DNA from: Anatilimnocola aggregata
GTDB taxonomy: Bacteria > Planctomycetota > Planctomycetia > Pirellulales > Pirellulaceae
DNA length: 64,000 nt
Direction: 5' to 3'
NCBI RefSeq assembly: GCF_007747655.1
Contig: NZ_CP036274.1
Span: 7,254,001 to 7,318,000, forward strand
Shown in pieces: positions 13,948 to 30,239 of the stretch. Position 1 is the first letter of the stretch, and the number at the start of each line of letters is the position of its first letter. A program made the position numbers and the translations under genes. The notes below the pieces were generated by a model that was not told where the DNA came from, did no database searches, and saw nothing but the letters and a program-made list of their open reading frames with translations.

Positions 13948-14014
13948 GTCGTTCACACGGGTTCGCTTTACCGGTCGCACGCCGCACTTGACTTTCACCA
14001 CTTGCGAACCTGCC

Positions 14015-15130: not shown

Positions 15131-16862
15131 CCGGAGCTTGATGTACCTTGGCAAGATTTAGGCTCGCCTGCTGCTCACCAAGGCGGTAACTACAGTCAGT
15201 TGCTAGCTGATAATAATTCCGAATTTCTTTTCCCCACTGCTTCTTTTCACAGGTCCAACGTAGGCGCACTTGAGCGCCGAGCTGCCTAAACACTTCGCGG
15301 GTGCCCAGCCGGTCGTGCGAGAAACTGTCCTCGCACCACTTACGCCAGTTCGCCAGTTCGACCAGCAGCTGGTCAGTGATCGGAGCATTGTCCCAATCGA
15401 GCGGCTTGTTCGCATTCTTGGCGTGCAACAGTTGCTCTTCGAGCGCGTCGTATTCAGTGAGCCACTCATTCACAGTGTCGCTGAGTTCGTTGCGAAGCCG
15501 CGCGTGTTTGACTTCCAGCAAAAGGCCCTCTTTCCCGATTCGGATTTTTTCACCGAGTACGCGCAGACTCTGTTCCAGTTCTGAGACGGTGTTATCAACT
15601 GGCTCATCGCTAAAAAATCGCTCGGGCTTCGGTCGGATCAGCTCGGCTTGAGCTTCGTCAATCTCGGCCTTCATTCGCTCCATGAGAAACGGAAGGATTT
15701 TCTCTTCGCGAATCGTGTGATTGCCACACACACTGGCTCCGAATCGTGTTCGGCCCTCGCAGCGGTACTCGGTGTGCCGGAACACTTTTCCGTTGTACTT
15801 CTTCTTCACGTCGACGCCGTACATCCGGTTGCCACAGTGATCGCACACAAGCACGCCGGTCAGCACGAAAGGTGTTTCTCGCGTGCGAAGCCGCGCGCTC
15901 TTTGCAAAGCTTGCAATGCGATCCTGCGCGGCCTGCCAGGTCTTTTGATCGACGAGCGCTTCGTGGGCATCGTGATGACGAATGACGCCGTCTTCAGTCG
16001 GCTTCCAGGCTTGCCGTAGCGGGCCTCTCTCTGGTGCCTCAACTACTTCGCCGTCTTTGTTGAGGATGAAGAACTCGCCGGTCTTTTTCAGGTTGTACGT
16101 GAACGTCCCCTTGTAGACTTCATTCTGCAGGATGTTTTTCACCGTCTGATTCGACCAGTGCTTGCCGCGGGGCGGCTTCACTCCCTGCGAGTTCAATTCG
16201 TTGGCGATATACAACATGCTGTGGAACTCGCACACGAAGCGATTGAAGATCGACTTCACTACCTGAACCTTGGCGGGATCGCCAAGAACGATCGTTCCTG
16301 AATTTTTCTCACCGTTGTTGTAGCCGTACGGTGCGTTGCCGCCCGACCGCTTCCCTTCACTGGCCTTGTTCCGGCGCGTGAGCGCAAGACGACGGCCGAG
16401 CTTGCGCGAGAAGTCGTTTCCGCCGTGAATGTCGATCACGAGTTTCAGAACTCGGCCGATGTCGTTCTGGCCAGCGCCAACCAAGTCGTACTTGCCTTGC
16501 TTGACGCAGTGCAGCGCCACGACGCCACCATTTTTCAGCGTGAGCAAGTCGGTGAAGACGTCCATTACGCCGGCGCGGCTGAACCGGTCGATGTCGTCGC
16601 AGAGGATCACGCGGAAGTCGCCCAGCTCTTTCGCCTCCCGAAGCATGCGATCGAACTGCGGCCGCTTGCCGTCACGCTTCCAACCGCTCACACCTTCGTC
16701 GATGTACCAGCGGATGATGATGTAGCCGTTCGCAGCTGCAAACTGCTCGATTTCCCTCCGCTGCTGCGCTAACGAGTTCTCTTGGCGCTCGGTGCCGTCG
16801 GCGCGTGTTCCCTTCGTCGATTTGCGGAGGTAAGCGACGGCGGGGATGAGCTTTGGTTTCAT
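15066..16862 (-). CDS. Large serine integrase of the island
   Basis: 598 residues as integrated. The N-terminal resolvase domain has catalytic Ser15 in AYLRKSTKG, and the DDIDRFSR and GKYDLVG segments. A recombinase domain follows (about 170-270), then a zinc ribbon ([10 protein letters not shown]...CEG...CGNH, about 330-390) and a coiled-coil region (440-500). The last 20 residues and the stop are coded by host comM sequence past the crossover. In the circular form the same frame would continue for 64 codons and stop at 29620. The gene lies at the attL end and reads outward, as usual for such integrases. It probably acts on comM attB. Confidence 0.93.
15105..15154 (+). other. attL of the satellite island
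   Basis: The left junction. Host comM sequence up to CAA (15128-15130) meets the element arm at 15131-15154. That arm is an inverted copy (20 of 23 bases) of 29791-29813 at the other end. The predicted crossover dinucleotide is AA at 15129-15130. Confidence 0.85.
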
Positions 16863-16885
16863 TGGATCGCTCGCTCTGTTGTGGA

Positions 16886-16913
16886 GATTCGGTAATATAT
16901 ATATTACCGAATC
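16886..16913. repeat. 28-bp perfect palindrome, AT-centred (1 of 4)
   Basis: GATTCGGTAATATA is followed directly by its reverse complement. It lies 24 bases upstream of the integrase start, between it and the divergent AbiEi gene, so it may be an operator of the integrase promoter. Its centre is a TATATATA run, as in the three others in this gap. Confidence 0.85.
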
Positions 16914-17039
16914 CCCTTAAGAACATCCACACGCTTGGAGTCTTGAGCGGAAAGATTTTGGTGCAAATGATTTGAAAATCAGCGGTTGCTGCGAAAAGTG
17001 CGGGTAGCCGGGAGCAAATCTCGCCAGATTTTGGCCCAG

Positions 17040-17065
17040 ACTGTGTAGTATATATACTCCACAGT
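17040..17065. repeat. 26-bp imperfect palindrome, AT-centred (2 of 4)
   Basis: ACTGTGTAGTATA is followed by TATACTCCACAGT, with one mismatched pair. The centre GTATATATAC is shared with copies 3 and 4, while the outer arm sequence differs. Confidence 0.8.
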
Positions 17066-17089
17066 CCACGCAAGACGTTGGGGGTGGTA

Positions 17090-17151
17090 GATCACCAGCT
17101 CAGAGCGAACACGCTGTATATATACAGCGTGTTCGCTCTGAGCTGGTGATC
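17090..17151. repeat. 62-bp perfect palindrome, AT-centred (3 of 4)
   Basis: Two 31-base arms (17090-17120 and 17121-17151) are exact reverse complements with no spacer, centred on GTATATATAC. This is long for a perfect palindrome in a bacterial chromosome and would extrude as a cruciform or form a strong RNA hairpin. There is no T-tract on either side, so it is not a classical terminator. Confidence 0.92.
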
Positions 17152-17331
17152 CAGGGGGGTGCTGGCGTAAACCCTTACAGGAAAGCATCTTGCGGATATA
17201 GACCTGTGTTTGCCGATTTTCCGGCTCGGATGTGCCATGCAAAGACAGCCGTTTTTTTCTCGGAGTGCGTTACTCGTTTCGCAGGAAGAGCTTGCGTGCA
17301 TTGGGCTAGCTCCAGCGGCCTTTACTTGCTG

Positions 17332-17361
17332 GTGTCTAGCAGTATATATACTGCTAGACAC
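17332..17361. repeat. 30-bp perfect palindrome, AT-centred (4 of 4)
   Basis: GTGTCTAGCAGTATA is followed by its exact reverse complement, ending 20 bases before the AbiEi-like start codon. AbiEi antitoxins autoregulate by binding inverted repeats upstream of their own gene, so this is the best placed of the four to be an AbiEi operator. Confidence 0.85.
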
Positions 17362-17381
17362 AGCCTTAACCGGAGTAGAAC

Positions 17382-18260
17382 ATGCCAGTTTCCTATAAAA
17401 GCCGCTTCCTTGTCGCCCGACAGGATATCGAAACCGCACTGGATTCGTTGTCTTCGAGGGTTCTGACAGCTGACGTCGTGACTGATCTGCTGAATCAATT
17501 CCGCGAGAACTGGCGACTGGGCAATATCGCTCCCTTGGCTTTCCTTCGCCTGCTAGAAGAACACTCCCACCTTCACACAGTCAAATTGCGATTTCCGACT
17601 CGCCCCGTAACTCGCCTCGTTTGGAGGGAGGCCAGCGAATTTGAGATTGTGCAGTCTCTAAGCGAGAAGGGGTATTTCAGTCACTACTCGGCGATCTACT
17701 TCAACGGTCTAACGGAACAAGTTCCGAAGATATTCTATTTCAATATCGAGCAAGCCGTTCGCCCCGGTGGCGGAACATTGGTTCAAGAGGCCGTTGATCG
17801 GGTGTTTCGAGGCAAGTGCCGACAATCATCTCGCATCGCTTCGTTGGGTGAGCGATCAGTGTGCATGGTGAACGGCGGAAACACCGACAACCTCGGAGTC
17901 TTCCCAAGGAAACTCGCGGAGTCGACATCTGAGATTCACGTCACCGACATCGAACGGACTCTGATCGATGCGGCCGTCCGCCCTGCGTACTCCGGTGGCG
18001 TTCATCAGGTTCTCGCGGCATACAGGGCCGCGAGCAAGAATGTCTCAGTCAATCGACTCGTATCTTACCTACTTAGAATCAACTACACATATCCATATCA
18101 CCAAGCGATCGGTTTCTATATGGAGCGCGCGGGCTACCGGGCCACACAGATCGAGCTTTTGAACGAGTTCAAAATAGAATTTAACTTCCACCTAGACTAC
18201 GGACTGAAGAACCCCGACTTCAATTCACGTTGGCGATTATTTATTCCAAAGGGGTTCTAA
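17382..18260 (+). CDS. AbiEi-like antitoxin, type IV toxin-antitoxin system
   Basis: 292 residues. An N-terminal part (about 1-110) looks like a winged-helix region. The most telling segment is the AbiEi hallmark TDIERTLIDAAVRPAYSGGV near residue 190. AbiEi proteins repress their own promoter and block the nucleotidyltransferase toxin AbiEii. CGGAG sits seven bases before the ATG. The gene is convergent with the toxin-like gene, overlapping it by 24 bases; known AbiE pairs are usually co-directional with the antitoxin first. Assignment rests on motif and neighbour. Confidence 0.72.
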   Translation: MPVSYKSRFLVARQDIETALDSLSSRVLTADVVTDLLNQFRENWRLGNIAPLAFLRLLEEHSHLHTVKLRFPTRPVTRLVWREASEFEIVQSLSEKGYFSHYSAIYFNGLTEQVPKIFYFNIEQAVRPGGGTLVQEAVDRVFRGKCRQSSRIASLGERSVCMVNGGNTDNLGVFPRKLAESTSEIHVTDIERTLIDAAVRPAYSGGVHQVLAAYRAASKNVSVNRLVSYLLRINYTYPYHQAIGFYMERAGYRATQIELLNEFKIEFNFHLDYGLKNPDFNSRWRLFIPKGF

Positions 18261-19160
18261 CTGTCGGCACTTCTCTACAACGAAAGCGAAATAGAGTTCA
18301 AAGTCGTTGGAGGGCAGTTCCACGCCGGGCAATATCGTGTCAAGTACAGATGGAAAAGCCAAAACGTGAACGTCAAATGTGTCTTTGATCTTGCCGATCC
18401 AGTCGAGAGGGACTCGCTTAGCCTCGAACATCTTCTGAACTAAGGAATGAAACTCAGCGGAGCCAAAATCCACTTCCAGGCCGAATTCCGGATGGTTGCA
18501 AATCACATAAATATCTGTGAAGTCTTTCGGCCTAGCTCCCGCTCCACGCGATCGCTTAACAATCAAACCATACTCCGGCATCTGCTGACAGATTGCCCTG
18601 ATCTTTTCGGCGACTAGCGCCGCGGGCGTATAGATTGCGATCTTCAGCCCCTCGAATACTACAAACTTCCGCGATTTGTTGTACTCGTGCTTGCTAATAT
18701 CTATTTCAAATTTAGTAGACCCATTTGAACCAACTTTCTCACACTCTCTCCTTATTTGCTCTTCATTTCCCTTGAGTCTTTCGTAGTCTTCCGCGCTGAT
18801 GATCTTGAAGTCAACTGAGTAGCCGCCCCAAAACTCGATCAGCTCTGGATCTTCTTCGACTCCTCTCGGGACTGCTCGGAAGTTGAAATCGATAACGCGG
18901 TACTTTTCCCGGGCAAAGCCATCTTCGATTGCTCGCTGAATCCTCTCCCTAAATTCATCGTTCGTCTCGAACTGCTCGTCCATCGATAGATCGAGGTCTA
19001 ACGAGGAGCGGGTCGATACGTTTAGACCGAGATCGAGAGCGTTACCGCCCTTTAGCACGAGGTTTTCAAGGATAGTGTCGTCAGAGAACAGCGATTTGAG
19101 CGCGATGCTCTTGATCTTGCGAATGAAGTCCAATTCGCTCGTACTGACCTTCTTAGCCAT
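18237..19160 (-). CDS. AbiEii-like nucleotidyltransferase toxin
   Basis: 307 residues of the AbiEii/DUF1814 nucleotidyltransferase fold. LVLKGGNALDLGLNVSTRSSLDLDLSMD carries the GG (38-39) and DxD (D55, D57) metal-binding motifs; TPAALVAEKIRAI and RPKDFTDIYVI are the later AbiEii motifs. Members transfer nucleotides to cellular targets, some to tRNA acceptor ends, arresting growth during phage infection. It is transcribed toward its presumed antitoxin and overlaps its 3' end. The GC content looks lower than in flanking backbone genes, in line with defence cargo. The start at 19160 has no strong Shine-Dalgarno sequence. Confidence 0.82.
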   Translation of the reverse strand: MAKKVSTSELDFIRKIKSIALKSLFSDDTILENLVLKGGNALDLGLNVSTRSSLDLDLSMDEQFETNDEFRERIQRAIEDGFAREKYRVIDFNFRAVPRGVEEDPELIEFWGGYSVDFKIISAEDYERLKGNEEQIRRECEKVGSNGSTKFEIDISKHEYNKSRKFVVFEGLKIAIYTPAALVAEKIRAICQQMPEYGLIVKRSRGAGARPKDFTDIYVICNHPEFGLEVDFGSAEFHSLVQKMFEAKRVPLDWIGKIKDTFDVHVLAFPSVLDTILPGVELPSNDFELYFAFVVEKCRQLEPLWNK

Positions 19161-19267
19161 TGTAATCTCGCATCGGTTGAAAAGAGCTTGGCATTCTAGT
19201 TGACCGATGAAGCATCGGAAACCATGATCTAACTCGCAATCTGCTAAACAGCTTTGAGAACACTACC

Positions 19268-20071
19268 ATGCGCGTTTTCGTCAGTTGGTCCGGCCCCCGC
19301 AGTCAAAAAGTCGGCGAGGCACTCAGCAAGTTCATTCGTCGCGTACTACAGCGAACCGAGCCGTGGTATTCGAAGAACAGCATCCGCTCGGGGCGTCTTG
19401 CCTACGACGAACTTGTAAAGGCGCTGATCGGAACGAAGTTCGGCATTCTCTGTGTCACCGCGGACAATTGGGAGCGACCGTGGCTGAACTTTGAGGCCGG
19501 CGCATTGCTGCGAAGTGTGGAAGCGACGCAAGTCACGCCGTACCTACTGGATATTAAGCCGAGCCAGTTGCAAGCGCCTCTCAACCTGTTTCAAGCGAGA
19601 GCAGCTAACCAGAGCGACACGCTTGAGCTGTGTAGGGACATTAACACCGCACTAGGTAGCGACTCGCTTCCGCCCAATGAATTGAACGATCATTTTGAAA
19701 AGTGGTGGCCCGAGCTGGAGTCGCAACTTAATGCGATCGAGTCAACCGGCGCTGAGCCGCCGAAAGCTCCTGACGAGAAACAGCTAATACTAGAGATGAG
19801 AGAGATGCTGTCGCTTGCCTTATCGCAGAAGCGGCCTGAACATCCTGTAGTGCTGTTGCCAGACACCGTACCGAAGGTAGCCGAAGAGACTTATCTCAGG
19901 ATGCAAATTCGTCAAAACGAACGCGAACTGAAGAAGCATCAGAATCTACTGAAAGAGGCAACAGATCAAGAAGAAGCTGATCGGGCAAGGAGTAAGATAT
20001 ATCGATCACAGCAAGCAATTGAGCACGCTCAAAATCGACTCAATCTGATTAACAAGGGAACATTAGACTAA
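19268..20071 (+). CDS. TIR-domain protein, putative defence effector
   Basis: 267 residues. Residues 2-140 read as a bacterial TIR domain: MRVFVSWSGPRSQKVGEAL, SGRLAYDELVKALIGTKFGILCVTADNW and then PWLNFEAGAL, where E76 is in the position of the NADase catalytic glutamate. From about 185 the protein is predicted coiled coil, rich in Glu, Gln and Arg. Bacterial TIR proteins degrade NAD+ or make cyclic ADP-ribose signals in anti-phage defence, for example ThsB in Thoeris. No ThsA, CBASS or Argonaute partner is adjacent, so it may act alone or with another island product. It sits next to the AbiE-like pair at the left of the island. Confidence 0.78.
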   Translation: MRVFVSWSGPRSQKVGEALSKFIRRVLQRTEPWYSKNSIRSGRLAYDELVKALIGTKFGILCVTADNWERPWLNFEAGALLRSVEATQVTPYLLDIKPSQLQAPLNLFQARAANQSDTLELCRDINTALGSDSLPPNELNDHFEKWWPELESQLNAIESTGAEPPKAPDEKQLILEMREMLSLALSQKRPEHPVVLLPDTVPKVAEETYLRMQIRQNERELKKHQNLLKEATDQEEADRARSKIYRSQQAIEHAQNRLNLINKGTLD

Positions 20072-20170
20072 CGCGCTCGATTATCCAGATCGCAGCCATC
20101 GCCCTTTTCGATTACGTCGATTTTGCTCATTGCGGCATTGTCGATGCTCACAGTTGCTCGCACCACTGGC

Positions 20171-21028
20171 CTATAGCATTCCGGCCGCGGCCATCAAGTT
20201 GATTAGCTCGGCGTCGTCCTCGTACTCATCCTCCGTGCCTTCCTCAAACGCGCTCTTCGTTGTCGTGAGGCATCGACAATTCACCCGCTGTTGAGCTGGT
20301 AAGCTCCAATGCCCGGGATAGGGAACTAGAAAGCCACCGACGTTGAAGTTCTCGTCCGGCTTCACCGTGACGCCATGCAGGGACAGGTGAGCCGCTCGCA
20401 CGTCTTTGTCGAGCGTCGCCGACCACGTTTTGCCGGTGATGAGTCCAGCATCGCCGAGCGTCTTGTGAACGGCTGCATGCCCCGCATTCATCAGGCCAGT
20501 TGTTTCGGTGCGAGCGATTGCCAGTGCGCGGGCGGCACTCCCCGCGCCCAGCTCTTCGGCAATCAGTTTCGCTAGGTCGCGATTCGTAAGGCCGTCCGCT
20601 ATGCCGCCTGTAATGAGTTCGGTAAGCCGCTTCTCAGTGGAAGCTTGTATCCCGGCCCAGAACGGCTGAGCTTCCAAGTCGTGCAGGTATTCCTTCAGCA
20701 GCTCGAATGCTTCTTTCGGAAGGCCCTTCAGTTTGAGAAGCGATTCTTCGAGTGAGTCATCGGCCTTGTTGCGTTTCTTCGGTTTCGCGTGTCGCCGCAG
20801 CTCGGCGAGAGCGGCCCCAGCGATCGTAGTGGCCATCGGCGTGCGAACCGCCTTCAAAAACGCCAGGTGTTCGACGTCGGCGCGGAAGATGAGCGGCACA
20901 AGCGCCGCGGTAATTGTGCCGTGCTGACGAACTTCGGCCGCGACGCGCCGGGCTTGGCCGGTGAGAAAGAGGCGAATCGGTTTCGCGAGTCGACGCTCAT
21001 TAGTGCCGTGCGTTTTCTCGGCTGACAT
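20171..21028 (-). CDS. Minor head protein, Mu F / SPP1 gp7-like
   Basis: 285 residues. The C-terminal half has the phage head morphogenesis pattern: ARTETTGLMNAGHAA, a Trp and DKDVRAAHLSLHGVTV, then PYPGHWSLPAQQRVNCRCL with the usual conserved NCRC. Such proteins bind the portal and are ejected or help head assembly. It is the last gene of the leftward head operon, ten bases after the portal stop, as in many phages (portal then gpF/gp7). It ends in an acidic tail. Confidence 0.82.
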   Translation of the reverse strand: MSAEKTHGTNERRLAKPIRLFLTGQARRVAAEVRQHGTITAALVPLIFRADVEHLAFLKAVRTPMATTIAGAALAELRRHAKPKKRNKADDSLEESLLKLKGLPKEAFELLKEYLHDLEAQPFWAGIQASTEKRLTELITGGIADGLTNRDLAKLIAEELGAGSAARALAIARTETTGLMNAGHAAVHKTLGDAGLITGKTWSATLDKDVRAAHLSLHGVTVKPDENFNVGGFLVPYPGHWSLPAQQRVNCRCLTTTKSAFEEGTEDEYEDDAELINLMAAAGML

Positions 21029-21038
21029 ATCACACTCG

Positions 21039-22346
21039 CTAGTTGCTGAGACTGGCCAGCGTGTACGGGTCGAAACCCTTCATCGGCTCCAGCGCCTCGC
21101 GCAGTTCGTCGCCCCCGTCGATATTGGGCAAGCTGAGCACGTTCCGCCGATACTCGTTCGGCGTGACGTAGCCGAGCTGTGCGGCGCTCTGCCAGCGCTT
21201 CAGGCTCAACTCCGGATCGTGTGCGACAGCGGGCTCAATCCAAACGGTGAGCCGCTTGTCGTCGGGAGCGAACAGCGGCCCGAGCCATTCAGTCATTGCC
21301 TGTGAAAGCAGGGTGAGCAGCGGGTTCACTTTGTTGCTGACGAAGATTTCATCGGCGACGGTGGCAGACGCTCGATTGGCCCCCTCAACTTCGCCCAGCA
21401 AGATCGGCGAGACGCCGAAGCCTTGCAGAATTTTGGCCTTCGTGAGCTTGGACGAGTTCAAGAAGTCCATTTCAGCGACGCTGCTGGTCAGCTTCGTGAT
21501 ATTGTCGATGAGCCCGTCTAGTATCAGGGGCTCGCCGGCATTCATCGCCCCGCGGTGCATATTGCGAATGGCCGATACCAGTTCGCGGCGTTGCCATGAT
21601 TCGAGAATTGGCCGCTCGCCTTGTTCACCGGTCACAGGATCGGTAGGGAGCCGGCCAGCGTGAAGGATGAGCCCGGGCAGCAATCCATTCTCGAAGGCCG
21701 CACGCTGAGCGGTGCCGATGGATTCATCGGCGAGCACGGCATCAGCAATTCGCTGCAGCGTGGAAATGCAGCCGAACGGGTCGCAGGGGTCCGGATAGAA
21801 ATAGTGGGCGATTTGCTCGCCGGGAATCGGGAAGGATCGAGTCGAACCATCGGGCCGAATGTTCCAAACGGTACGACGCCGATCAGTCGACTCGATCCAA
21901 TGAGTCGGCAAGTGAAAGATGCGATCTTGGCCATTCTCCGACGTCACCCACCACAGCGCCCGGCCGGTCAGTTCTAAGCTCGCGACCGTACAGAACATCA
22001 GCGTCCACTGCGTGTGCAGGTCGCTGGGGTCGCTCAGCACGTTTAGCAGCCGGTGCGAAGAGAGCGGCTCGACCGCGTTGCCACCTTTCCTCACAGGCAG
22101 CGAACCGGCGCGGTAGCCCACATTGATCGCTTGGCCGGCGACGCGAGTGGCAATCAGCCGCACGGCCGCGAACACCCACCCTTTGTTGTGATCGCACAGT
22201 TCGCGCGCACCGCTTGGTGCGGGTCGTGTTTCGCCAATCGTGCCCCCGCTCTGGATGGCGGACAGAGCGGGGGCGACGATGGCAGCTTTTGCATTCGCTC
22301 GCAAGGATTCGAGACGTGCAAAAGCTTTAGCGATTGCGGACGACAT
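21039..22346 (-). CDS. Phage portal protein, HK97 family
   Basis: 435 residues from the ATG at 22346, which has AAGGG eight bases upstream; the in-frame ATG at 22361 is an alternative. Motifs of Phage_portal (PF04860) proteins are visible: NKGWVFAAVRLIATRVAG, the long central region with LPTHWIE, and KLTKAKILQGFGVSPILLGEVEGANRASATVADEIFVSNKVNPLL, the typical C-terminal helix run. The portal forms the dodecameric vertex through which DNA is packaged. The start overlaps the preceding small gene by 20 bases. Confidence 0.88.
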   Translation of the reverse strand: MSSAIAKAFARLESLRANAKAAIVAPALSAIQSGGTIGETRPAPSGARELCDHNKGWVFAAVRLIATRVAGQAINVGYRAGSLPVRKGGNAVEPLSSHRLLNVLSDPSDLHTQWTLMFCTVASLELTGRALWWVTSENGQDRIFHLPTHWIESTDRRRTVWNIRPDGSTRSFPIPGEQIAHYFYPDPCDPFGCISTLQRIADAVLADESIGTAQRAAFENGLLPGLILHAGRLPTDPVTGEQGERPILESWQRRELVSAIRNMHRGAMNAGEPLILDGLIDNITKLTSSVAEMDFLNSSKLTKAKILQGFGVSPILLGEVEGANRASATVADEIFVSNKVNPLLTLLSQAMTEWLGPLFAPDDKRLTVWIEPAVAHDPELSLKRWQSAAQLGYVTPNEYRRNVLSLPNIDGGDELREALEPMKGFDPYTLASLSN

Positions 22347-22590
22347 GGGCGAGCCCTTCATTCTTTGCCGTCTTACGGGCGAACGTAGACGTTTCGGCTT
22401 CGATTCGAGCGCGATCGCGGGCCAAAACAGCGGCCAGCGCCTCGCATTCGGCCTGTGAGACAGAGAGCGTTCGCCGCGTCGCTTCGTGTGCAGCTTGCTC
22501 GTCTGCGAGCTGTTGCCGCGCAGTATCGAGTCGCAGCAGCAAACGACGCTCACGAGCCGAGCCCTTGAATCCAAACAGCAACCACCGCAT
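22327..22590 (-). CDS. Small coiled-coil protein of the head operon
   Basis: 87 residues, almost all helical (RRLLLRLDTARQQLADEQAAHEATRR...), preceded by a hydrophobic MRWLLFGFKG start. It has a clear AAGGAG ten bases before its ATG and overlaps the portal start, so it is translated with the operon. A scaffold or membrane-linked role is possible. No family recognised. Confidence 0.7.
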   Translation of the reverse strand: MRWLLFGFKGSARERRLLLRLDTARQQLADEQAAHEATRRTLSVSQAECEALAAVLARDRARIEAETSTFARKTAKNEGLAHVVRNR

Positions 22591-22595
22591 GGGCG

Positions 22596-23120
22596 TTACT
22601 CCTTAGAGAGCTTGGCCAGGAGAGCCGACATCAGTTCGTTCTGCCGTTCCATCGCAGCGAGAAAGCGATCCTCGCGCGTGTTGTCAGCTGGCTTCGTGAC
22701 GGTGATAAAGCTCTTTTTCACCGGCCCGTCCAGCTTCTTTGGCATCGTTCCCTGCGACACGCGAGCGATGCCGGACTCAACGCCACGATTCAGCCAGAAC
22801 AGCCAAGTCGAAACGTCGACACCGGGAAATGGTCGGCGAGCTGGCGCGATGCTCAGACCGCGGCCTTCGATCCGCTTCCGCGTCGCTACGTGATCGGGCT
22901 CATGCAAGGGCTCGATGATGTAGCCCTCGCCGAATTCCAAATCAACGCCGATGCGTTGACCGGGAACTGGTTCGGGGAAGTCCACGATCTTCATGCGGGC
23001 GAGCGGTTCCGTTTCGCGGTTCAAATCGAACCGGCCGCGGATTGTTTCGCCAATTGGGCGGAAGTGAAAACAGTCGTTTCGCTTTCCGCCCGTAATCTCG
23101 ATTTCAAAAACTTTGGCCAT
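22596..23120 (-). CDS. Unknown protein between major capsid and portal genes
   Basis: 174 residues, mixed alpha/beta, with a beta-rich first half (MAKVFEIEITGGKRNDCFHFRPIGETIRGRFDL) and a basic, helical end. It has GGAG nine bases before the ATG. Its position between capsid and portal is where capsid decoration, head-fibre or adaptor genes occur, but no motif confirms this, and the usual Ser or His protease triads of a prohead protease are not visible. Confidence 0.72.
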   Translation of the reverse strand: MAKVFEIEITGGKRNDCFHFRPIGETIRGRFDLNRETEPLARMKIVDFPEPVPGQRIGVDLEFGEGYIIEPLHEPDHVATRKRIEGRGLSIAPARRPFPGVDVSTWLFWLNRGVESGIARVSQGTMPKKLDGPVKKSFITVTKPADNTREDRFLAAMERQNELMSALLAKLSKE

Positions 23121-23163
23121 CTATCAATCTCCGACTAACGGGAATGGGTAATTAAATTTGGGC

Positions 23164-24519
23164 CTAGCTTTGGCCGTCCGACCACTTGGCGAAGGCATTG
23201 CCATCAGCCACGCGGCCCCCGAAACGGCCCCTGACGATCAGCAGCGCCATGTTCTTCAGCGCCAATTCCTTGCCGCCCATTTCCCAACGAACCTCAAAGC
23301 CCTGCCTCCGGTAAAGCCGGTAGCGCGAGAGAGCGCCGAAGATCGCAGTCGCGTTGGGAATGTCACCATTAATTCGGTGCGGCCAGTCGAGCGTGATGTA
23401 GCTATTGACGGCGTCCAGGCCGAACACCGGGCGCTGGTCGCGAGTCTGAATCGACGGGTCGATCTGGATAGCCCGGCTGCGACGATAACTGACATCATTC
23501 GACAAGAAGGCCGGCCGCATGGCCTTCGAGCGATACTGCTTACCAATTGCGAACATCAGGCCTTCGTAGTCGCTCAACGACGGCGGGCCGCTGCTGCCTT
23601 CATCGGTGTTGACGGTGCCGATGCCGCTCGCATTGGCGATGCCCTGCGGCTCGCTGGTGCCGTTGCCGGCCGCGATAACACGATCCAACTCTGCCGACAG
23701 CCGCTGACCGACATTCTCGACAAGTTGCCGCCCGACGTCTGCCGCGGCATCGACAAGCATATCCTTGCCAACTTCGATAGCGACCGTGACGGCGTGAATC
23801 GAGCTGTTGATGTCGTCGATCAAGTTCGACGTATTGAACACCGAAATCGACGTGCCTTCCGGAGTGCCCCAAATTACTGTCGGATTGCCCACGCTCGCAG
23901 CTTCGACGCTGTTGGCACGTGGAACCGGTCGCAGGTCGACGAACGGGAGCAGCTCGCCGCTGAGCAGTGGGAAGGAAATCAGATTGTCGTCGAACCATTC
24001 CGGCACAATTTCAGCGCCACCGCTCACAGCGTCATTGAGCACGGCCTTGGCGTTCGAGCCCGGGATGCCGGCCAGATAGTGCGAATGGAACTTGCCGGCC
24101 CACGCGTCGCCGTAGCATTCTTCCAGCAGCTCGCGATCGGTTCGGGCGAGCGAGTTGCCGAGCCCGGCCCGCGACGCCAGGTGTTTCAGGAAAGCGCCGG
24201 CCTTGGCGTTTTCGTGTTCGCTCGGCTGCATGGCAATTCGGCCGCGCTCATCCTTCACAGTCTCGCCGGTTTTGTTGTGTCGGCCGACCGCTTTGGTCGT
24301 GTTGAACTTGCCGTCACCCTTGTTGCCACCGTTCATCGAACCGAAGAGGGCATCGGGCGTGAGTTCGTCGCCGTTCAGCAGCTCGGCGAACTTGGCCGGC
24401 GAGAGCTTGCCGCTTTCCACAGCGGACGCGGCTTGAGTTCTCAGGACGTCAGCATCAGCTGCTTCCGAGACGCTGTAGTTCTTAACGAGCCAGTTGCGGA
24501 GTCCATTCGTGATCTTCAT
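23164..24519 (-). CDS. Major capsid protein, HK97 fold
   Basis: 451 residues. The first 110 or so are helical and polar, as in the scaffolding delta domain. The rest follows HK97-type capsid proteins: GGAEIVPEWFDDNLISFPLLSGELLPFVDLRPV, the SSIHAVTVAIEVGKDMLVDAAADVGRQLVENVGQRLSAELDRVIAAGNGTSEPQGIAN spine helix with its GNG..EPQGI turn, and LFGALSRYRLYRRQGFEV near the end. AGAAGGAA precedes the ATG. With TerL and the portal it forms a complete head-building set. Removal of the delta domain would need a protease not seen in the island. Confidence 0.9.
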   Translation of the reverse strand: MKITNGLRNWLVKNYSVSEAADADVLRTQAASAVESGKLSPAKFAELLNGDELTPDALFGSMNGGNKGDGKFNTTKAVGRHNKTGETVKDERGRIAMQPSEHENAKAGAFLKHLASRAGLGNSLARTDRELLEECYGDAWAGKFHSHYLAGIPGSNAKAVLNDAVSGGAEIVPEWFDDNLISFPLLSGELLPFVDLRPVPRANSVEAASVGNPTVIWGTPEGTSISVFNTSNLIDDINSSIHAVTVAIEVGKDMLVDAAADVGRQLVENVGQRLSAELDRVIAAGNGTSEPQGIANASGIGTVNTDEGSSGPPSLSDYEGLMFAIGKQYRSKAMRPAFLSNDVSYRRSRAIQIDPSIQTRDQRPVFGLDAVNSYITLDWPHRINGDIPNATAIFGALSRYRLYRRQGFEVRWEMGGKELALKNMALLIVRGRFGGRVADGNAFAKWSDGQS

Positions 24520-24562
24520 TTGCAGTTCCTTCTGCTATGTGAAGTCAGAGCTAAGCTCTAAC

Positions 24563-26092
24563 TTAGGGATAAAGTACTAAACTTCTATCAACTTTTTTCG
24601 TTGGCGATAGATTGAATTTGCGAGCAGCGTACAAACTGAGCACCAAAGCTTGTGCCGCATCGCCGTGATGAGTGCCACCTTTGGCGGTGCCGCGGTCAGA
24701 TTGCAGCCGGAAGCCATAATTCTTTTCTGCCACCTTCAGCCCGCTCAGATCGGCCAGCAGCTCATCATGCGGATATAGGTCGATCATCCGTTCGCGGAAT
24801 GAGTCGAGAGTGGTCGTTGCCATTGCTTGCAGGTTTTGGCCGGTGAAGTGAATGGCTTGGATCGGCACGCCACGCTTCCGCAGTCGCTGCACCATCAGTT
24901 CGGCCTGCCAGTAATCCGCGGCGACCGCTGAGAGGCGATATCGCTGGTGAGCTTGGACGACAGCCTCTTCGACTTGTTCGAGGTCGATCTTGCGGCCAGG
25001 GCCCGGTTGCCACGTTTGCATATTGAGCAGTCGCAGCCGACCGGTGCCCTCATGGCGAATGAGCTGGTCTTCGCGATGGGGCGCATCGAACACCCCGACG
25101 TCAATCATCGCGGCCATTTGCGGCGATAGGTGTCGCTGAGCTTCCGATTTGACTTCGGTATAGCCCACGTGGGCCCCTACGATTGCGAGCCCGGTAGCGT
25201 CGCGGGTGGTTGAGAGGTCGAGCCCGGCGACTGAGACGTAGCCCTGCGGTGTTGCGCCTGATGGGCCTGTGAGTGTAAGAGCGTCGCGGAGTTCCTGCTC
25301 AGTAAGGGCATCGCCACCGCCACCGGTCCACTGATTGAGCCACAGCCGACGATAGGCGACGAACGGTAGCAGCCGCTCCTGCTCGGCAAGGCGCTCGGGG
25401 GTGATCCATTTCGCTTGCGGGCCATCGAGCGAATGGAAGTACCACGACGCGTCGGTTCGGATCGCTTCGCGGAGTGGCCAGACCCAATGCGTTTGAAAGC
25501 CGGCGTTGAGGATGCAAACGACCACGCAGTTCGGGCGTTTGGCCGCGGCGCTGATGAGTGACTGCCACAGGTCAGGCTTCGACCAGTGGGAGATTTCGTC
25601 GCACACGATGAAGTCGGGTGTGAGCCCGTACGAACTGGCCACGTCGCTGCTGATGATTTCGAGCCGCGATCCGGTGTGCGGGTTCACGATCACGCTGCGC
25701 TGCACTTCGAGGCATTGCAGCAGCCAGGGATTAAGCCGCGTGAGCTTGTCGACTGCCTCACGGACGAGCGTCGCTTGATCGTGGTCACTTGCCGCGACGA
25801 CACCGGTCAGCTTCCGGCGAGCGGCGAAGAGCACCCACGCGGCCGTCACGGCGATGTCATGCGTCTTGCTGTGACCGCGGGGGCGTTCGAGCCATGCCCG
25901 CGTGTGCTGGGGTTCGGTTGCGATGCCTGCCAGTCGTCGCCACGCCGGGTCGAGCGCCGCGAAGTCTTGCAGCTGGTAGGGTTCGAGCACATCGCCGAAC
26001 TTCACCGGTTCATTGCCGGCCGCGTCGATCATCAGGCAGCGTCGGAACTCCGCGGGATCGGCCTGCAGCCTGCGGAGTTGGTCAGTTCGCAC
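24563..26092 (-). CDS. Large terminase subunit (TerL)
   Basis: 509 residues from a GTG start at 26092, with AGGGA upstream. The ATPase motor has the Walker A variant RPRGHSKT (70-77) and Walker B FIVCDE (161-166). The RNase H-like nuclease has GLDLSTTRD (Asp292), VAADYWQ near 390 and HHGDAAQAL near 485 as the metal ligands. TerL pumps DNA into the prohead through the portal and cuts it. The start overlaps the preceding gene by 11 bases. A full-length, apparently intact terminase argues that the island packages its own DNA. Confidence 0.92.
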   Translation of the reverse strand: MRTDQLRRLQADPAEFRRCLMIDAAGNEPVKFGDVLEPYQLQDFAALDPAWRRLAGIATEPQHTRAWLERPRGHSKTHDIAVTAAWVLFAARRKLTGVVAASDHDQATLVREAVDKLTRLNPWLLQCLEVQRSVIVNPHTGSRLEIISSDVASSYGLTPDFIVCDEISHWSKPDLWQSLISAAAKRPNCVVVCILNAGFQTHWVWPLREAIRTDASWYFHSLDGPQAKWITPERLAEQERLLPFVAYRRLWLNQWTGGGGDALTEQELRDALTLTGPSGATPQGYVSVAGLDLSTTRDATGLAIVGAHVGYTEVKSEAQRHLSPQMAAMIDVGVFDAPHREDQLIRHEGTGRLRLLNMQTWQPGPGRKIDLEQVEEAVVQAHQRYRLSAVAADYWQAELMVQRLRKRGVPIQAIHFTGQNLQAMATTTLDSFRERMIDLYPHDELLADLSGLKVAEKNYGFRLQSDRGTAKGGTHHGDAAQALVLSLYAARKFNLSPTKKVDRSLVLYP

Positions 26093-26411
26093 GGAAGCTG
26101 TCCCTTAACCGCTCGTCAATTCGTTCGCGAGTTGCATGCGGATCGTCTCCATGTTCTAGCACTACGTCAAGGATCGCAATTGCCAGCGATTCCTTGGTGA
26201 CAGCTTGGTCTACCCAAAGCGAATTGAACTCAGCCATGAGCAGTTCAAGGTCTTCAAAGGTGACCGCAGCGTCTAGTTTCCCCGTTAGTCGGCAGCACGC
26301 AGTCGCAATCGCTGGCACAAAGTCATCCAGCGGCTCAAATCCCACTGGCAGTAGACTCCGCCCATAGTCTGACTGCCTCACGAACATGACGTACGCTTTT
26401 GACGTGTCCAT
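26082..26411 (-). CDS. Unknown protein between terminase genes
   Basis: 109 residues, acidic and helical (FEDLELLMAEFNSLWVDQAVTKESLAIAILDVVLEHGDDP). It is coupled on both sides: its ATG overlaps the upstream stop (TAATG) and its end overlaps the TerL start. Position suggests a packaging role. No motif recognised. Confidence 0.72.
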   Translation of the reverse strand: MDTSKAYVMFVRQSDYGRSLLPVGFEPLDDFVPAIATACCRLTGKLDAAVTFEDLELLMAEFNSLWVDQAVTKESLAIAILDVVLEHGDDPHATRERIDERLRDSFRAN

Positions 26412-26857
26412 TAGTTGCTCCCAGGAGAAGAAATTGCAGGGGCATCCGAAATAGTGTCCTGCTGCGCCAGTGTGGCCGGTGAAGTGTAGAGGGATGCGAA
26501 GCCCGCGTCCTCAATTTCCAGGTCGAGCAGTTTCAGCACGCGGTCACGTTGGTCGCTTGCGGCCCCTATCTCACGCAGTACCGCCATTCGCTCCAAAAGC
26601 TTGAGCCCGGCTTCACCGTCACGCAGCCACCGCGTAAGGAGCTGCGCGCGGCCTTCATGACGAACCGCGGATTGGATTAGCGCGGCCCTGTAGAGCGTGA
26701 TTGCGCCGTGCTTATCCTTGACAGCATTGGCGACAAACTTCTCGAAAACGCCGAGCTGCCGGCGAATGTACGATGCCCCCTTGGGCAGTGAGCCGATGGC
26801 CAGAAACCCATAGGTTCCGTGCGTCGTTCTGTTCCTATTCCCTTTGGGACCGGGCAT
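26411..26857 (-). CDS. Candidate small terminase subunit (TerS)
   Basis: 148 residues. A basic N-terminus (MPGPKGNRNRTTHGTYGF) is followed by helical segments SYIRRQLGVFEKFVANAV and AALIQSAVRHEGRAQLLTRWL. That is the size and helical make-up of phage TerS proteins, and it is two genes ahead of TerL in a coupled run. No clear HTH signature can be read, so the call is by position and size. It is the first gene of the packaging and head block. Confidence 0.55.
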   Translation of the reverse strand: MPGPKGNRNRTTHGTYGFLAIGSLPKGASYIRRQLGVFEKFVANAVKDKHGAITLYRAALIQSAVRHEGRAQLLTRWLRDGEAGLKLLERMAVLREIGAASDQRDRVLKLLDLEIEDAGFASLYTSPATLAQQDTISDAPAISSPGSN

Positions 26858-26892
26858 TTACGTCGTCATCCGTGACTGGTGGCTAAGGGGTC

Positions 26893-26944
26893 GCGATGGT
26901 CAGGTATCAAGTTCCGTGTGCGGAGCGTGTCACCTGACCATCGC
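26893..26944. repeat. 13-bp inverted repeat ahead of the packaging genes
   Basis: GCGATGGTCAGGT at 26893-26905 is exactly complementary to 26932-26944, with 26 bases between. It lies 36 bases upstream of the TerS candidate. It could be an operator of the head operon, a cos/pac recognition site, or an mRNA hairpin. There is no T-tract. Confidence 0.6.
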
Positions 26945-27004
26945 AGCGGGGGCCGATCCGTCGAACCCCGCGGGCAAGGTCGTTTTTCAAAAACGGGCTT
27001 TCGA

Positions 27005-28972
27005 TTAGTTATTTAATATCTCAGTTAATTCTATATCGATACTAGCAATCGATTCCACAATATCGTCGTCAACTTCAACGTGGTTCCAAGAGAGCACGCG
27101 AATGTAAGCACCGGTGATGTGCCCAAGCTTGTACAGAAACTCGTCATGATCGAATTCCTTGCCTGCATCGAACACGGTGCGAGGGAATCCACCCTTCGCG
27201 GTGTAACATTGAAGCGAGGTAATGACACCCGATTGCCGCAGTTCTTGAAGAGCCAATTCGATCTTCAACCACTCTTGGCGAGTTGGCGTTAGGATCATCT
27301 TCCACTGGCAGACTGGTTTGGGGCGTTTCCAGCCCTGACTGCTCGTGAGAGGCCGATGGCGGTTGGCTCGCATTTCGGGCGTGATCGCGAGAATTTGCTT
27401 CGCAAGCTCACGCTGCGCTTGCTGCAATGTAATCGGCCGCGAACCTTTGAACTCGACCGTCGCGATCAGCGTTGCGCGGCTGGCATCTTCGCTGTGCTCG
27501 ACCGCGACATACTGAATTGCAGCCGAGTCGATTCCTGTGCGATCGGTTGCCCGGTTGATGTACTTCGTGATCGTGGGCAGTGATGCCTTCCGGATATCGG
27601 CGACGTAGAACTTTTCGCCGCCATACTTCGCCTGATGCTCGACAAGGTAAGGCACCGAATCCGGTTCGGTCGCCGCGGCCTGTACGAACTGCGAGACGTA
27701 GCCGGCCTTGTAGTGATCGTGGCAAACCGAGCATCCCGAACATCCGCATGGGTAGAGGCCGAAGAGGCCCTTGTTCGCATTTTTTGACGCGATACCCACG
27801 AAGTAGCCGTGCTTTGGTTCCGGGCATTTCTGTTTGCTTAATCCAGCGTGGAAGTCCGGAAGATTGCCGCTAGCAGCTTGCGAACTTCCCGCCATGTCCG
27901 AGTTTTCAGCAGGGGCCCCAATACCCCTGCTGTTAATTCGGACATCGTTCTGCAAATCCGTGTGTTGTTGAGCTTTAGGGCGATCAATCTGCAGCCCTAA
28001 AAATGCTTTCGCCGCTTTGAAGTCCAGGCCGCGGCGTTCCTGCAGCCATTCGAACACGTCACCCGTTTTGCCGCAGCCGTGACACTTGAACCGCCCCCGC
28101 CCATCACGATTGTCGACGAAGGTCGATAGCGACGGGCTCCGATCATCGTGGAACGGGCAGCACCAGCTATCGCCGCGATGTGGCTGGCCAAGGTCGTGGG
28201 TGATGAGCGAGTGTAGGTTGTCGACACTCAAAGCCCCCTGCAAATCGGCAGGAGCGAAGTACAGGTCATTGGGCGAACTTGCCACCACTCGCTTCGGCCG
28301 GCCTTCCCACGCAGCCAGGGCGTCGCCTGTGAGCGGGACGAACTTCTTAGCGTCAACCAGGGCACGCTCTAAGTGACGCTTGAAAACGACGTGGTTCGGA
28401 TCGCTGCAGTGAAGCGCCGAAACATCTTTCGTTGGAAGTGTGAATGTCCGTACGCCGGCTGTGTGACCGTGTTGCAGCACGAACTGTGGGACATCGACGG
28501 CGAACTTCTCCCCGGCCTTGTCGTGCTCCTGAATGACGAACACAGGAACTCGAATGTGCTGGACGAACTTCTCCAAACACTTGTAGAGGTTGGCACCGGG
28601 AATGCCCAACGACGGGAAGCCATGAAACTTCAGCGTCCAGCAGTCGGTCTCCCCTTCAACGATGATGAGAAAGCCAGCTTTGTGAGCTTCGCTGAGTCTG
28701 TCGAGAAAGTAGGGAACGATCTGAAGTGCTGATTTTTTTGGTAGCAACTTGCCGCTGTCGTCGCGGCCCTTGATTGGTACCAGCCATCGCGACTCGCTAC
28801 CGCTTACACCGTGCCGCACGCGGACGCGGCAGGGGGAGCCGTCCAGCCCCCGATAGAGAATGTGCAGGTGTTGCCCGTTGCGATGTTCGCTTGCGTATTG
28901 CAATATATCTTGCTTAGGAAGACGCTTCGAAATAGACACTTTTTCAGTAAGTGTACTTGCATTAGTAGTCAT
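27005..28972 (-). CDS. Toprim + CHC2 zinc-finger primase/replication protein
   Basis: 655 residues. A Toprim domain comes first (FLIIVEGETDCWTLKFHGFPSLGIPGAN near 100-130, VFVIQEHDKAGEKFA after it). A DnaG-type CHC2 zinc finger follows (CCPFHDDRSPS...FKCHGCGKTGDVFEWL, about 275-315). This is the reverse of the DnaG order. A Cys-rich segment (PCGCSGCSVCHDHY) and a C-terminal region with RPLTSSQGWKRPK, like some replication initiators, make up the rest. No helicase motif is present, so a host helicase would be needed. It lies between the HTH regulator and the packaging genes. No strong Shine-Dalgarno sequence. Confidence 0.82.
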   Translation of the reverse strand: MTTNASTLTEKVSISKRLPKQDILQYASEHRNGQHLHILYRGLDGSPCRVRVRHGVSGSESRWLVPIKGRDDSGKLLPKKSALQIVPYFLDRLSEAHKAGFLIIVEGETDCWTLKFHGFPSLGIPGANLYKCLEKFVQHIRVPVFVIQEHDKAGEKFAVDVPQFVLQHGHTAGVRTFTLPTKDVSALHCSDPNHVVFKRHLERALVDAKKFVPLTGDALAAWEGRPKRVVASSPNDLYFAPADLQGALSVDNLHSLITHDLGQPHRGDSWCCPFHDDRSPSLSTFVDNRDGRGRFKCHGCGKTGDVFEWLQERRGLDFKAAKAFLGLQIDRPKAQQHTDLQNDVRINSRGIGAPAENSDMAGSSQAASGNLPDFHAGLSKQKCPEPKHGYFVGIASKNANKGLFGLYPCGCSGCSVCHDHYKAGYVSQFVQAAATEPDSVPYLVEHQAKYGGEKFYVADIRKASLPTITKYINRATDRTGIDSAAIQYVAVEHSEDASRATLIATVEFKGSRPITLQQAQRELAKQILAITPEMRANRHRPLTSSQGWKRPKPVCQWKMILTPTRQEWLKIELALQELRQSGVITSLQCYTAKGGFPRTVFDAGKEFDHDEFLYKLGHITGAYIRVLSWNHVEVDDDIVESIASIDIELTEILNN

Positions 28973-29059
28973 TGTGTGTTCAATTCATCGGTGGTGTAAA
29001 ACGGTGTTGCGTGCGTGCGGAATCCGCCATAGACTCCGCTCGCATCCGTGATCGAAGGG

Positions 29060-29099
29060 CTCCCCCAGCAGCTATCCTTGCCTGCTGGGGGAGTTTTTT
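29060..29099 (+). terminator. Strong hairpin terminator facing right
   Basis: CTCCCCCAGCAG and CTGCTGGGGGAG form a 12-bp stem around a 10-base loop, followed by six T on the plus strand. The T-tract overlaps the stop codon of the leftward HTH gene. No rightward gene is visible before it in the 87 bases after the primase start, so it may end an antisense or small RNA. Confidence 0.75.
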
Positions 29100-29568
29100 A
29101 TTTCTTGGCAGTGTCTGCCTTCGCGACCGCTGCCGCAGATTTGCCGGCAAAAAGCTTGCTCAGGTTTGAGTAGGCGCGGCTCAGGTCGAACACGCTGAAG
29201 GCCCGCAGCACGTCATTTTGCTTTTGCATGACGTCAGCGAGCTGCTCGCCGCTGATGAGCCAAGCATCGTCGTCGCCCACGAAGAGATAGGGCCGCGATT
29301 CTAGGTCGCAGATCAGTTCTGAGTAGTCCATCGCCTGAATGAAGCGACAAGCACTCTCAGCTGTTTTGTGGCTCGCTCCAGCGCGACGCAGGCCGCTCGC
29401 GACACCCGCGGCTAAAAGATCGTGCTCGCTGCAAAGCACAGCGCCATTGCCGGCACCGTTTGCTTGACGAATAGAGGGAATGAAAACTCTACTCGCGATC
29501 CATGAGGCCAAAGTCTTGGCCGGTGTACCGGTAAAATTTTCGACGTCCGTGATCGTGAATCCATTCAT
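29098..29568 (-). CDS. MerR-like HTH regulator or excision factor of the island
   Basis: 156 residues. The N-terminus MNGFTITDVENFTGTPAKTLASWIASRVFIPS reads as a MerR-type winged helix. Next is an LCSEHDLLAAGVASGLRRAG segment, as in AlpA/MerR regulators, then a helical part and a Lys/Ala-rich tail. The start has AAGGAGCC eight bases upstream. A 25-bp palindrome lies 65 bases upstream. In the circular element this gene would follow the integrase stop by 51 bases on the same strand, a natural position for a recombination directionality factor or satellite master regulator. Confidence 0.7.
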   Translation of the reverse strand: MNGFTITDVENFTGTPAKTLASWIASRVFIPSIRQANGAGNGAVLCSEHDLLAAGVASGLRRAGASHKTAESACRFIQAMDYSELICDLESRPYLFVGDDDAWLISGEQLADVMQKQNDVLRAFSVFDLSRAYSNLSKLFAGKSAAAVAKADTAKK

Positions 29569-29632
29569 GACTGGCTCCTTAGTTTTGCCGGGCCAATCCT
29601 AGGTTCCGCGGATTCCTTGTCAAGTTCGCTGC

Positions 29633-29657
29633 AAAGTGCAATCACTGATTGCACTTT
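29633..29657. promoter_or_regulatory. 25-bp palindrome upstream of the HTH gene, candidate operator
   Basis: AAAGTGCAATCA, one central C and the exact reverse complement. It lies 65 bases upstream of the HTH regulator start and just upstream of the position where the circular-form integrase frame would stop. An autoregulatory operator is the simplest reading. Confidence 0.65.
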
Positions 29658-29790
29658 TGAAAACATTCGCAGTAGTTGAGCAGTTGTCTGCCGGCCTTAA
29701 TGCTGTGTCGAGTCGCGGAAAAGACTTCCTCAGATCAAGCGCCGACCCGTCAAATATGCGAAAAACACGGGAAAACTGCACCTTTAGTCT

Positions 29791-29840
29791 TTGCCAAGGT
29801 ACGTCAACTTCCGCAAATCGAACGCTACATGGCGAAGATC
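29791..29840 (+). other. attR of the satellite island
   Basis: The right junction. Element arm TTGCCAAGGTACGTCAACTTCCG (29791-29813, given here as two blocks TTGCCAAGGTAC and GTCAACTTCCG), then the shared CAA (29814-29816), then comM sequence ATCGAACGCTAC. The predicted crossover dinucleotide is AA at 29815-29816. Confidence 0.85.
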
Positions 29841-30239
29841 TCCGGACCGCTCATCGACCGCATCGACCTGCACATGGAAGTTCCCGCCGTTCCCTACAAA
29901 GAATTATCTGCCGAGCGAGCCGGCACCAGCAGCGCCCAAATGCGTGAGCAGGTTGTAGCGGCCCGGGCCATTCAGGCGACGCGTTTCACTGGCGTCAACA
30001 CCCGCTATAACGCCCACATGAGCAGTAGGCTGATCCGCCAGTTCTGCAAACTCACTCCTCCCTGCCAGGAACTCATCAAGGCCAGCGTGAATGACCTCGG
30101 GCTCTCTGCCCGCGCTCACGACAAAGTCCTCCGCGTTGCCCGCACCATTGCCGACCTCGAAGCCAGCGACGCCATCGACGAAAACCACCTCAGCGAGGCC
30201 ATCAACTACCGGATGCTAGACCGGCAAATGTGGACGTAA
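29817..30239 (+). pseudogene. comM: comM/yifB, 3' part, separated by island insertion
   Basis: The last 140 codons of comM: IERYMAKISGPLIDRIDLHMEVP, the arginine-finger and sensor region, then the Mg_chelatase_C domain (MSSRLIRQFCKLTPPCQELI...LSARAHDKVLRVARTIADLE). Joined to codon 372 at 15130, the sequence reads C-N-C-S-I-P-Q-I-E-R-Y, which is the normal ComM spacing, and gives 512 residues. The fragment has no start of its own, though the frame is open back to an ATG at 29676 inside the island. Confidence 0.92.

Follow-up and report, generated by a model that had tools for sequence, protein, structure and literature searches.

A probable capsid-forming phage satellite without recognised tail genes in a planctomycete comM gene, and its relatives in Pirellulales

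What kind of element carries an integrase, a primase, a packaging enzyme and a phage head, and no recognised tail? This question is raised by an island of 14,686 bp at positions 15131-29816 of a 64,000-nucleotide stretch of the Anatilimnocola aggregata chromosome (NZ_CP036274.1). The whole stretch, here called the window, covers bases 7,254,001-7,318,000 of a 9.0-Mb single-contig genome. An earlier note, made from the letters of the window, had proposed a planctomycete element with the lifestyle of capsid-forming phage-inducible chromosomal islands (cf-PICIs), and had kept as its alternative a prophage that lost its tail genes. We put the probability at about 0.8 that we have here a capsid-forming phage satellite, integrated and intact, belonging to a head-only family present in Pirellulales and in metagenomic viral contigs.

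The island interrupts a comM/yifB-type gene. The two comM halves, 13901-15130 and 29817-30239, rejoin at a CAA core into a single 550-aa frame, in agreement with the limits that the earlier note had drawn. The features at the two ends of the island are as follows.

13901 to 15130, plus strand: N-terminal part of the host target gene comM/yifB (Mg-chelatase-like AAA; Mg_chelatase/ChlI matches, PF01078, 7.2e-81, and PF13541)
15066 to 16862, minus strand: serine integrase, whose 3' end crosses the left attachment site (attL) into comM (PF07508, PF00239, PF13408; phrog_95, 1.4e-82)
15128 to 15130: attL, core CAA (in-frame comM rejoining; symmetry of the attP site centred on the AA of the core)
29620 to 29816, minus strand: C-terminal coding stretch of the integrase as in the excised circle, including a 53-aa open reading frame (ORF), read through the circle junction
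29814 to 29816: attR, core CAA (comM rejoining, as for attL)
29817 to 30239, plus strand: C-terminal part of comM/yifB (Mg_chelatase_C, PF13335, 6.5e-32)

An attP site built from the island ends is near-symmetric about the AA of the core, at 15 of 20 positions. We preferred CAA as the core because it restores the exact comM frame and centres this symmetry; CCG was dropped, as it leaves two extra codons that are absent from the comM genes of relatives. Uninterrupted comM was found in four of the six genomes queried (G001, 85% identical; G012; G005; G007), and the other two gave no match at the DNA sensitivity used. The integrase gene contains the attachment (att) site within its 3' end (15066-15133 and 29620-29816), such that the C terminus differs between the integrated form, of 598 aa, and the circle, where reading across the junction gives 642 aa. 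The 53-aa ORF at 29620-29781 was rejected as a gene of its own, being part of the integrase C terminus in the excised circle.

Between these ends, the head and replication genes all lie on the minus strand. They are listed in order of transcription, with the integrase following later.

29098 to 29568, minus strand: p156, 156 aa, conserved (homologues at L142, L067, L086, L132, L133 and L134)
27005 to 28972, minus strand: CHC2 zinc-finger DNA primase (PF01807, 1.5e-11; primase PHROGs; homologues at L133 and L143)
26411 to 26857, minus strand: p148, a 148-aa helical protein and candidate small terminase, conserved upstream of the large subunit in satellites
26082 to 26411, minus strand: p109, an ORF of 109 aa with no homologue among the fetched loci
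24563 to 26092, minus strand: terminase large subunit, TerL (phrog_9, 1.5e-32)
23164 to 24519, minus strand: HK97-type major capsid protein (PF05065, 2e-17)
22596 to 23120, minus strand: p174, adjoining the capsid gene in satellites and in related phage-type loci (profile matches)
22327 to 22590, minus strand: h82, a small coiled-coil protein of 87 residues that overlaps the portal start, conserved in relatives
21039 to 22361, minus strand: portal protein, with an open frame reaching a TTG at 22574 (PF04860, 1.2e-38)
20171 to 21028, minus strand: Mu F-like head protein, MuF (PF04233, 4.8e-16)

Pfam, PHROG and PADLOC matches place the genes named by the earlier note (integrase, primase, TerL, HK97 capsid, portal, MuF, an AbiE pair and a TIR gene) where it had seen them, and no head gene in the window is broken, as it had also said. 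TerL matched TerL_ATPase above the cut-off of that profile (1.5e-07) and TerL_nuclease below its cut-off (0.011). The portal probably starts near 22361, because the conserved h82 gene occupies 22327-22590; the lengths of homologues point to the same start. The AlphaFold model of p174 has a predicted local distance difference test score (pLDDT) of 88.6, and its fold search gave no PDB or BFVD match at E ≤ 0.001. Position and conservation make p148 a candidate small terminase, with a helical predicted model (mean pLDDT 74.4). The small-terminase candidate of the earlier note has a conserved place upstream of TerL and gained no Pfam, PHROG or PDB fold match (the last at E ≤ 0.001). For p156, which matched nothing in Pfam or PHROG, we suggest a regulator as a candidate role; the regulators of cf-PICIs are of Stl/AlpA type.

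If the island belongs to a family, short elements of the same plan should stand elsewhere. A capsid search at E ≤ 0.001 matched 4 of 98 relatives, 20 of 396 genomes in the order and 22 of 392 genomes across the phylum (6 of the 22 were examined), with the window's own genome counted each time. Strong matches of the order search fell in compact loci in eight genomes (G000, G087, G426, G501, G537, G538, G563 and G585); the remainder were a phage-type locus in G063, a fragment in G093 and ten weak matches. Scans of IMG/VR yielded 7 loci by capsid, 17 by portal and 3 by TerL, and of two matching scans of genome contigs, the capsid scan gave no match and the portal scan one locus, L067. Duplicates with matching lengths and scores were merged (L068 = L132, L069 = L143, L077/L071 = L144, L074 = L061, L063/L064 = L065, L081 = L080, L084 = L083), and the distant capsid loci L136-L139 were mapped and kept outside all counts. 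This left 15 distinct compact loci. Eight are in Pirellulales genomes (the window, G426/L141, G087/L142, G585/L067, G538/L132, G501/L133, G563/L134 and G537/L135) and seven in IMG/VR records of unknown host (L060, L061, L075, L085, L086, G796/L143 and G797/L144). Locus L067 belongs to Lacipirellula limnantheis I41 (Pirellulales, Planctomycetota; NZ_CP036339.1; capsid at G585:C1:1722940-1724310), a named, sequenced species that offers a starting point at the bench. The fragment in G093, at L037:10069-10398, is an isolated piece of a capsid gene of this lineage; none of the other profiled head genes lies near it, and it is perhaps a remnant.

Both att sites were located in 8 of the 15 compact loci, giving elements of 12.7-21.5 kb at comM or at tRNA-type repeats; the seven bounded relatives are flanked by direct repeats of 38-58 bp.

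Window element, 14,686 bp: comM site
L086, 12,700 bp: repeat resembling a tRNA 3' end, where ARAGORN calls no gene
L067 (G585), 15,012 bp: tRNA-Met at the repeat (ARAGORN)
G426, 14,463 bp: tRNA-Met at the repeat (ARAGORN)
G087, 14,210 bp: tRNA-Phe at the repeat (ARAGORN)
G538, 13,693 bp: tRNA-Gln at the repeat (ARAGORN)
G796, 17,404 bp: tRNA-Lys at the repeat (ARAGORN)
G797, 21,535 bp: tRNA-Ser at the repeat (ARAGORN)

The exact terminal repeat that would mark a circular contig turned up in none of 11 contigs checked; L086 gave its att repeats instead. These boundaries bear on one alternative directly. A head cluster that packages host DNA, either domesticated or resembling a gene transfer agent, would explain head genes without a tail, and planctomycetes of f21 do hold TerL clusters without adjoining capsids. 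The island, however, brings an integrase, att sites and a primase of its own, for which reason we rejected such a cluster, and its relatives sit at scattered sites with repeats, the pattern of mobile elements; we find this explanation hardly credible.

In all 13 compact loci that show both capsid and portal, the order is capsid, p174, h82 or a tape-measure gene, then portal. In the 12 loci labelled phage-type, a label that rests on gene order and on locus or contig size rather than on full tail modules, the portal precedes the main capsid wherever both are present (9 of 9). The phage-type loci L065 and L072 were partly annotated and carry, in this order, a protease-bearing protein, capsid, p174 and an adaptor, with a neck protein in L065 as well. 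A profile of h82, made from five copies of which the window supplied one, matched 12 compact rows, or 11 distinct loci after removal of the L068/L132 duplicate, and gave weak matches directly before the portal in phage-type L072 (1.6e-4) and L070 (0.0026). It thus looks as if the satellites have retained two blocks of phage genes, capsid-p174 and h82-portal-MuF, whose order is exchanged and from which the protease is missing. MuF precedes TerL in L143 and L075. A short tape-measure gene (540-637 aa) is present in four of the 15 compact loci, where it is the one tail gene recognised.

L141, 8574-10487: tape-measure gene
L061, 8743-10656: tape-measure gene
L143, 14284-15915: tape-measure gene
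L075, 8460-10082: tape-measure gene

The call rests on PHROG matches for the L038, L069 and L075 genes and on homology for that of L061. The gene takes the h82 slot in G426 and L061 and follows the portal in L143 and L075.

The capsid tree follows the same division. With 15 compact and 7 phage-type sequences, and with the very long branches L080, L082 and L083 excluded, it requires one change of label, at a split with support of 73/96 that appears in 76% of 200 bootstrap trees; none of 500 label shuffles came as low as one change. We favour a single origin of the compact loci, which these trees suggest and do not prove. Known phages lie far off. Against 50,697 phage records, the capsid had 6 matches at E ≤ 0.001 with 23-24% identity (5 Streptococcus phages and 1 unnamed phage), the portal 430 matches (22.8-28.6% identity in the best 20 of 430) and TerL 71 (23-30% identity in the best 12 of 71).

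These comparisons allow us to weigh the idea that the island is a prophage now in decay after a recent loss of its genes for tail and lysis. Its head genes are clearly phage-derived, and the G538 element, which otherwise looks intact, has its MuF gene broken into two frames (L132:11369-11946), as decay would have it. Yet the short plan recurs at 15 distinct loci, 8 of them with both att sites; capsid identity to the window is 34-50% across 11 other aligned rows; the gene order departs from that of phage-type relatives in 13 of 13 loci; and in the window no head gene is broken and comM rejoins exactly. A lone decayed prophage was rejected on the strength of these many short, independently integrated relatives with att sites, and we regard a recent loss of the tail as very improbable. 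The earlier note had reasoned that a lone truncated copy would have close relatives with full tail and lysis modules. The closest relatives are instead short too, in other genomes and at other sites, with a tape-measure gene in four, and phage-type relatives stand apart from the 15 compact loci by capsid group and gene order, which leaves little room for its alternative.

How far, then, does the absence of a tail hold? Pfam and PHROG scans of the island proteins in the window gave no convincing tail, lysis, connector or protease family and no HNH endonuclease. The sole tail-named match, of MuF to the tail-fibre family phrog_11419, is at chance level (E 0.27), and a match of the same protein to phrog_595, named as a head maturation protease, spans the MuF region and so marks no protease domain. 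We extended the scans to leftover ORFs, meaning those of at least 50 codons outside our own profiles. Six att-bounded elements supplied 64 of these; the tape-measure gene of G426, already profiled, is not among them. At E ≤ 0.001 they matched 20 Pfam families (the complete list), none for tail, lysis, connector or protease, and at E ≤ 0.01 no tail family stood among 25 of the 79 PHROG families matched. The HNH family phrog_1271 was matched by two of the 64, including one in L086. G796 and G797 supplied another 26 leftover ORFs, which matched 14 PHROG families (the complete list), including the connectors phrog_5 (two members), phrog_442 and phrog_222, and no tail tube, sheath, baseplate or fibre family. 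One phrog_5 member is the neck gene of L144 (G797), and the other is probably L143:4471-4914; connectors thus occur in at most 2 of the 8 bounded elements. G797 (L144/L145), the largest member at 21.5 kb, has adaptor and neck genes. Among the leftover genes of G796 and G797 there are, in addition, matches to topoisomerase and primase-polymerase PHROGs.

Several results weigh against the satellite reading, and the first concerns the power of these profiles. In nine phage-type loci, 44 genes lie downstream of the capsid; as a control we scanned 39 of them, with two end-cut genes and three p174 copies excluded; several of these loci end shortly after the capsid. The scan recovered 18 PHROG families (the complete list), mostly connectors, with the phrog_442 adaptor in 6 members and the phrog_5 neck in 3, and only two weak tail matches, a baseplate wedge (4e-4) and a major tail protein (0.0019). 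The profiles recognise the connectors of this lineage well and its tails poorly. The absence of tail, lysis and connector genes that the earlier note had reported was borne out in both databases. Because the control recovered so few tail genes, divergent ones could escape the profiles, and for tails this absence is softer than it looks. A 162-aa protein of the L. limnantheis element (L067:12510-12998) matches phrog_22694 (2.3e-4), as does one gene downstream of the capsid in a phage-type locus (1e-27). The gene-order contrast has its exceptions: phage-type L073 has a second, weaker capsid-profile match before its portal, and the distant locus L137, outside the counts, has its capsid before the portal. 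The trees are not uniform, as the capsid split has moderate support (73/96), a capsid tree that includes L080, L082 and L083 (12 compact rows) needs 2 changes, and the poorly resolved portal tree needs 3. Besides the split MuF of the G538 element, MuF was not found in L134. When we looked for a helper in the host genome by PF05065, PF04860 and PF10145, the sole capsid and portal were those of the island, and PF10145 had no match; the genomes G426 and G538 do have matches to this tail-protein family, and so, weakly, does G585. Finally, all of the support comes from sequence.

A stronger argument than profile absence is the comparison of gene sharing. In an all-versus-all comparison of the eight bounded elements, p148, TerL, capsid, p174, portal and MuF were common to all eight, h82 to seven and p156 to five, and a primase of the window's type and a tape-measure gene to two each. 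Once antisense and shadow frames of core genes are set aside (these were judged by position and make up most of the shared unprofiled ORFs), no unprofiled ORF was common to more than three of the eight, and a hidden tail module common to the family is unlikely for that reason. The same count bears on the idea of a complete small virus that builds a tail or entry device from unrecognised genes, whether p174, h82, MuF or genes specific to each element. Such a virus would draw on p174 and h82, both without assigned function, on a confident p174 model with no PDB match, and on the many unannotated ORFs, and the profiles perform poorly on the tails of phage-type relatives. However, phage-type loci too have p174 after the capsid and an h82-like gene before the portal, so both look like head parts, and a tail would have to differ, and escape recognition, in nearly every bounded element. 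We judge a hidden-tail virus improbable, and return to a satellite that would make its own heads and take tails from a helper.

Known satellites offer several points of comparison. Tycheposons and VEIMEs include members with some head genes. Both are proposed marine satellite families according to an excerpt of PMC11389934, which also gives three published capsid radiations; the literature statements that follow are likewise drawn from excerpts of the papers cited. The genes of cf-PICIs comprise capsid, protease, portal, connectors, terminases and HNH (PMC10690885), and their mean size is 14 kb (PMC10803314); their published capsids number 900 sequences according to PMC13230959. The window island resembles them in its own capsid, portal, TerL and integrase, in forming an att-bounded island near 14 kb and in having no recognised tail (PMC10690885, PMC13230959, PMC10803314), but differs in the lack of a recognised head maturation protease, connectors and HNH. 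Its family places capsid before portal in 13 of 13 loci, a comparison that does not extend to the order in cf-PICIs themselves. Strict membership fails because neither protease nor connectors were found in the window. That the island works like a cf-PICI is better supported than that it is one, and it is as a lifestyle that the reading of the earlier note is supported. Judged by the published descriptions of cf-PICIs, the family is best regarded as a new, probably independent form of capsid-forming satellite.

Two other groups come close. MulchRoom and MiniFlayer, from Streptomyces, resemble the island as satellites that encode a complete set of head and packaging genes, and MulchRoom shows helper-length tails, but they parasitise virulent phages, and MiniFlayer is apparently non-integrating (PMC10690885). 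The Vibrio satellite-plasmids cf-PISP and PISP are likewise tail-less and capsid-encoding, at 15.8 and 11.1 kb; they are episomal, and cf-PISP has a protease and a head-tail adapter, whereas the window element is integrated with a serine integrase (PMC13230959). As for hosts, the primary cf-PICI hosts named in the excerpt of PMC10803314 exclude planctomycetes, and a search of the open-access literature by titles and abstract openings, with most subscription papers outside it, found no description of planctomycete satellites. Planctomycete cf-PICIs may already stand in surveys, since PMC10690885 calls cf-PICIs widely distributed across Bacteria.

How would such an element live? We infer that it uses a helper. 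The island would excise, triggered by a helper or spontaneously, and would replicate by its own primase together with functions of the host or the helper. During growth of a tailed phage in the same cell, the element would assemble its own small heads, its own terminase would package its DNA of about 14.7 kb, and the heads would be joined to connectors, tails and lysis functions from the helper. On reaching a new cell, the integrase would insert the island again. As for the missing protease, the capsid could do without cleavage, or an enzyme of the helper or the host could carry it out. As to origin, we venture a proposal that we ourselves find rather doubtful: that the elements arose once, when two blocks of phage head genes changed places and the protease, connectors and tail were lost, that their heads dock on helper necks through the portal alone, and that the tape-measure subset sets its own, shorter tail length with helper tail subunits. 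The lone tape-measure genes would make it a testable idea who sets the length of the tail. If the satellite reading holds, it extends head-making, tail-stealing satellites to Planctomycetota, and a family without a recognised protease, and mostly without connectors, asks how few head genes a satellite needs.

The island also carries defence-like cargo.

17382 to 18260, plus strand: AbiEi-like protein (PADLOC AbiEi, 5.6e-20)
18237 to 19160, minus strand: AbiEii-like protein (PF08843, 3.1e-18; PADLOC AbiEii, 7.7e-14)
19268 to 20071, plus strand: TIR-domain protein (PADLOC TIR-TM, 1.9e-52; homologue in L075)

The cargo of relatives includes a DNA methyltransferase in G087 and an AAA ATPase that, by its sequence, is that of G426. 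Together with the AbiE pair and the TIR protein, these genes fit a role in defence against rival phages or in stable maintenance. The abiE genes typically form an operon with both genes in one direction. Here, AbiEi and AbiEii face each other, with a 24-bp overlap.

Two further observations lie outside the family. Relatives of TerL were found at 16 loci (L039-L054) with no capsid-profile match beside them; 13 of the 16 share an upstream neighbour, 8 share a gene that looks ParB-like by eye, and a downstream gene common to L043 and L053 resembles a portal gene when inspected by eye. Elsewhere in the window, a second serine recombinase at 55922-57682 (PF00239, 5.3e-20; PF07508, 8.1e-15) possibly belongs to another mobile element.

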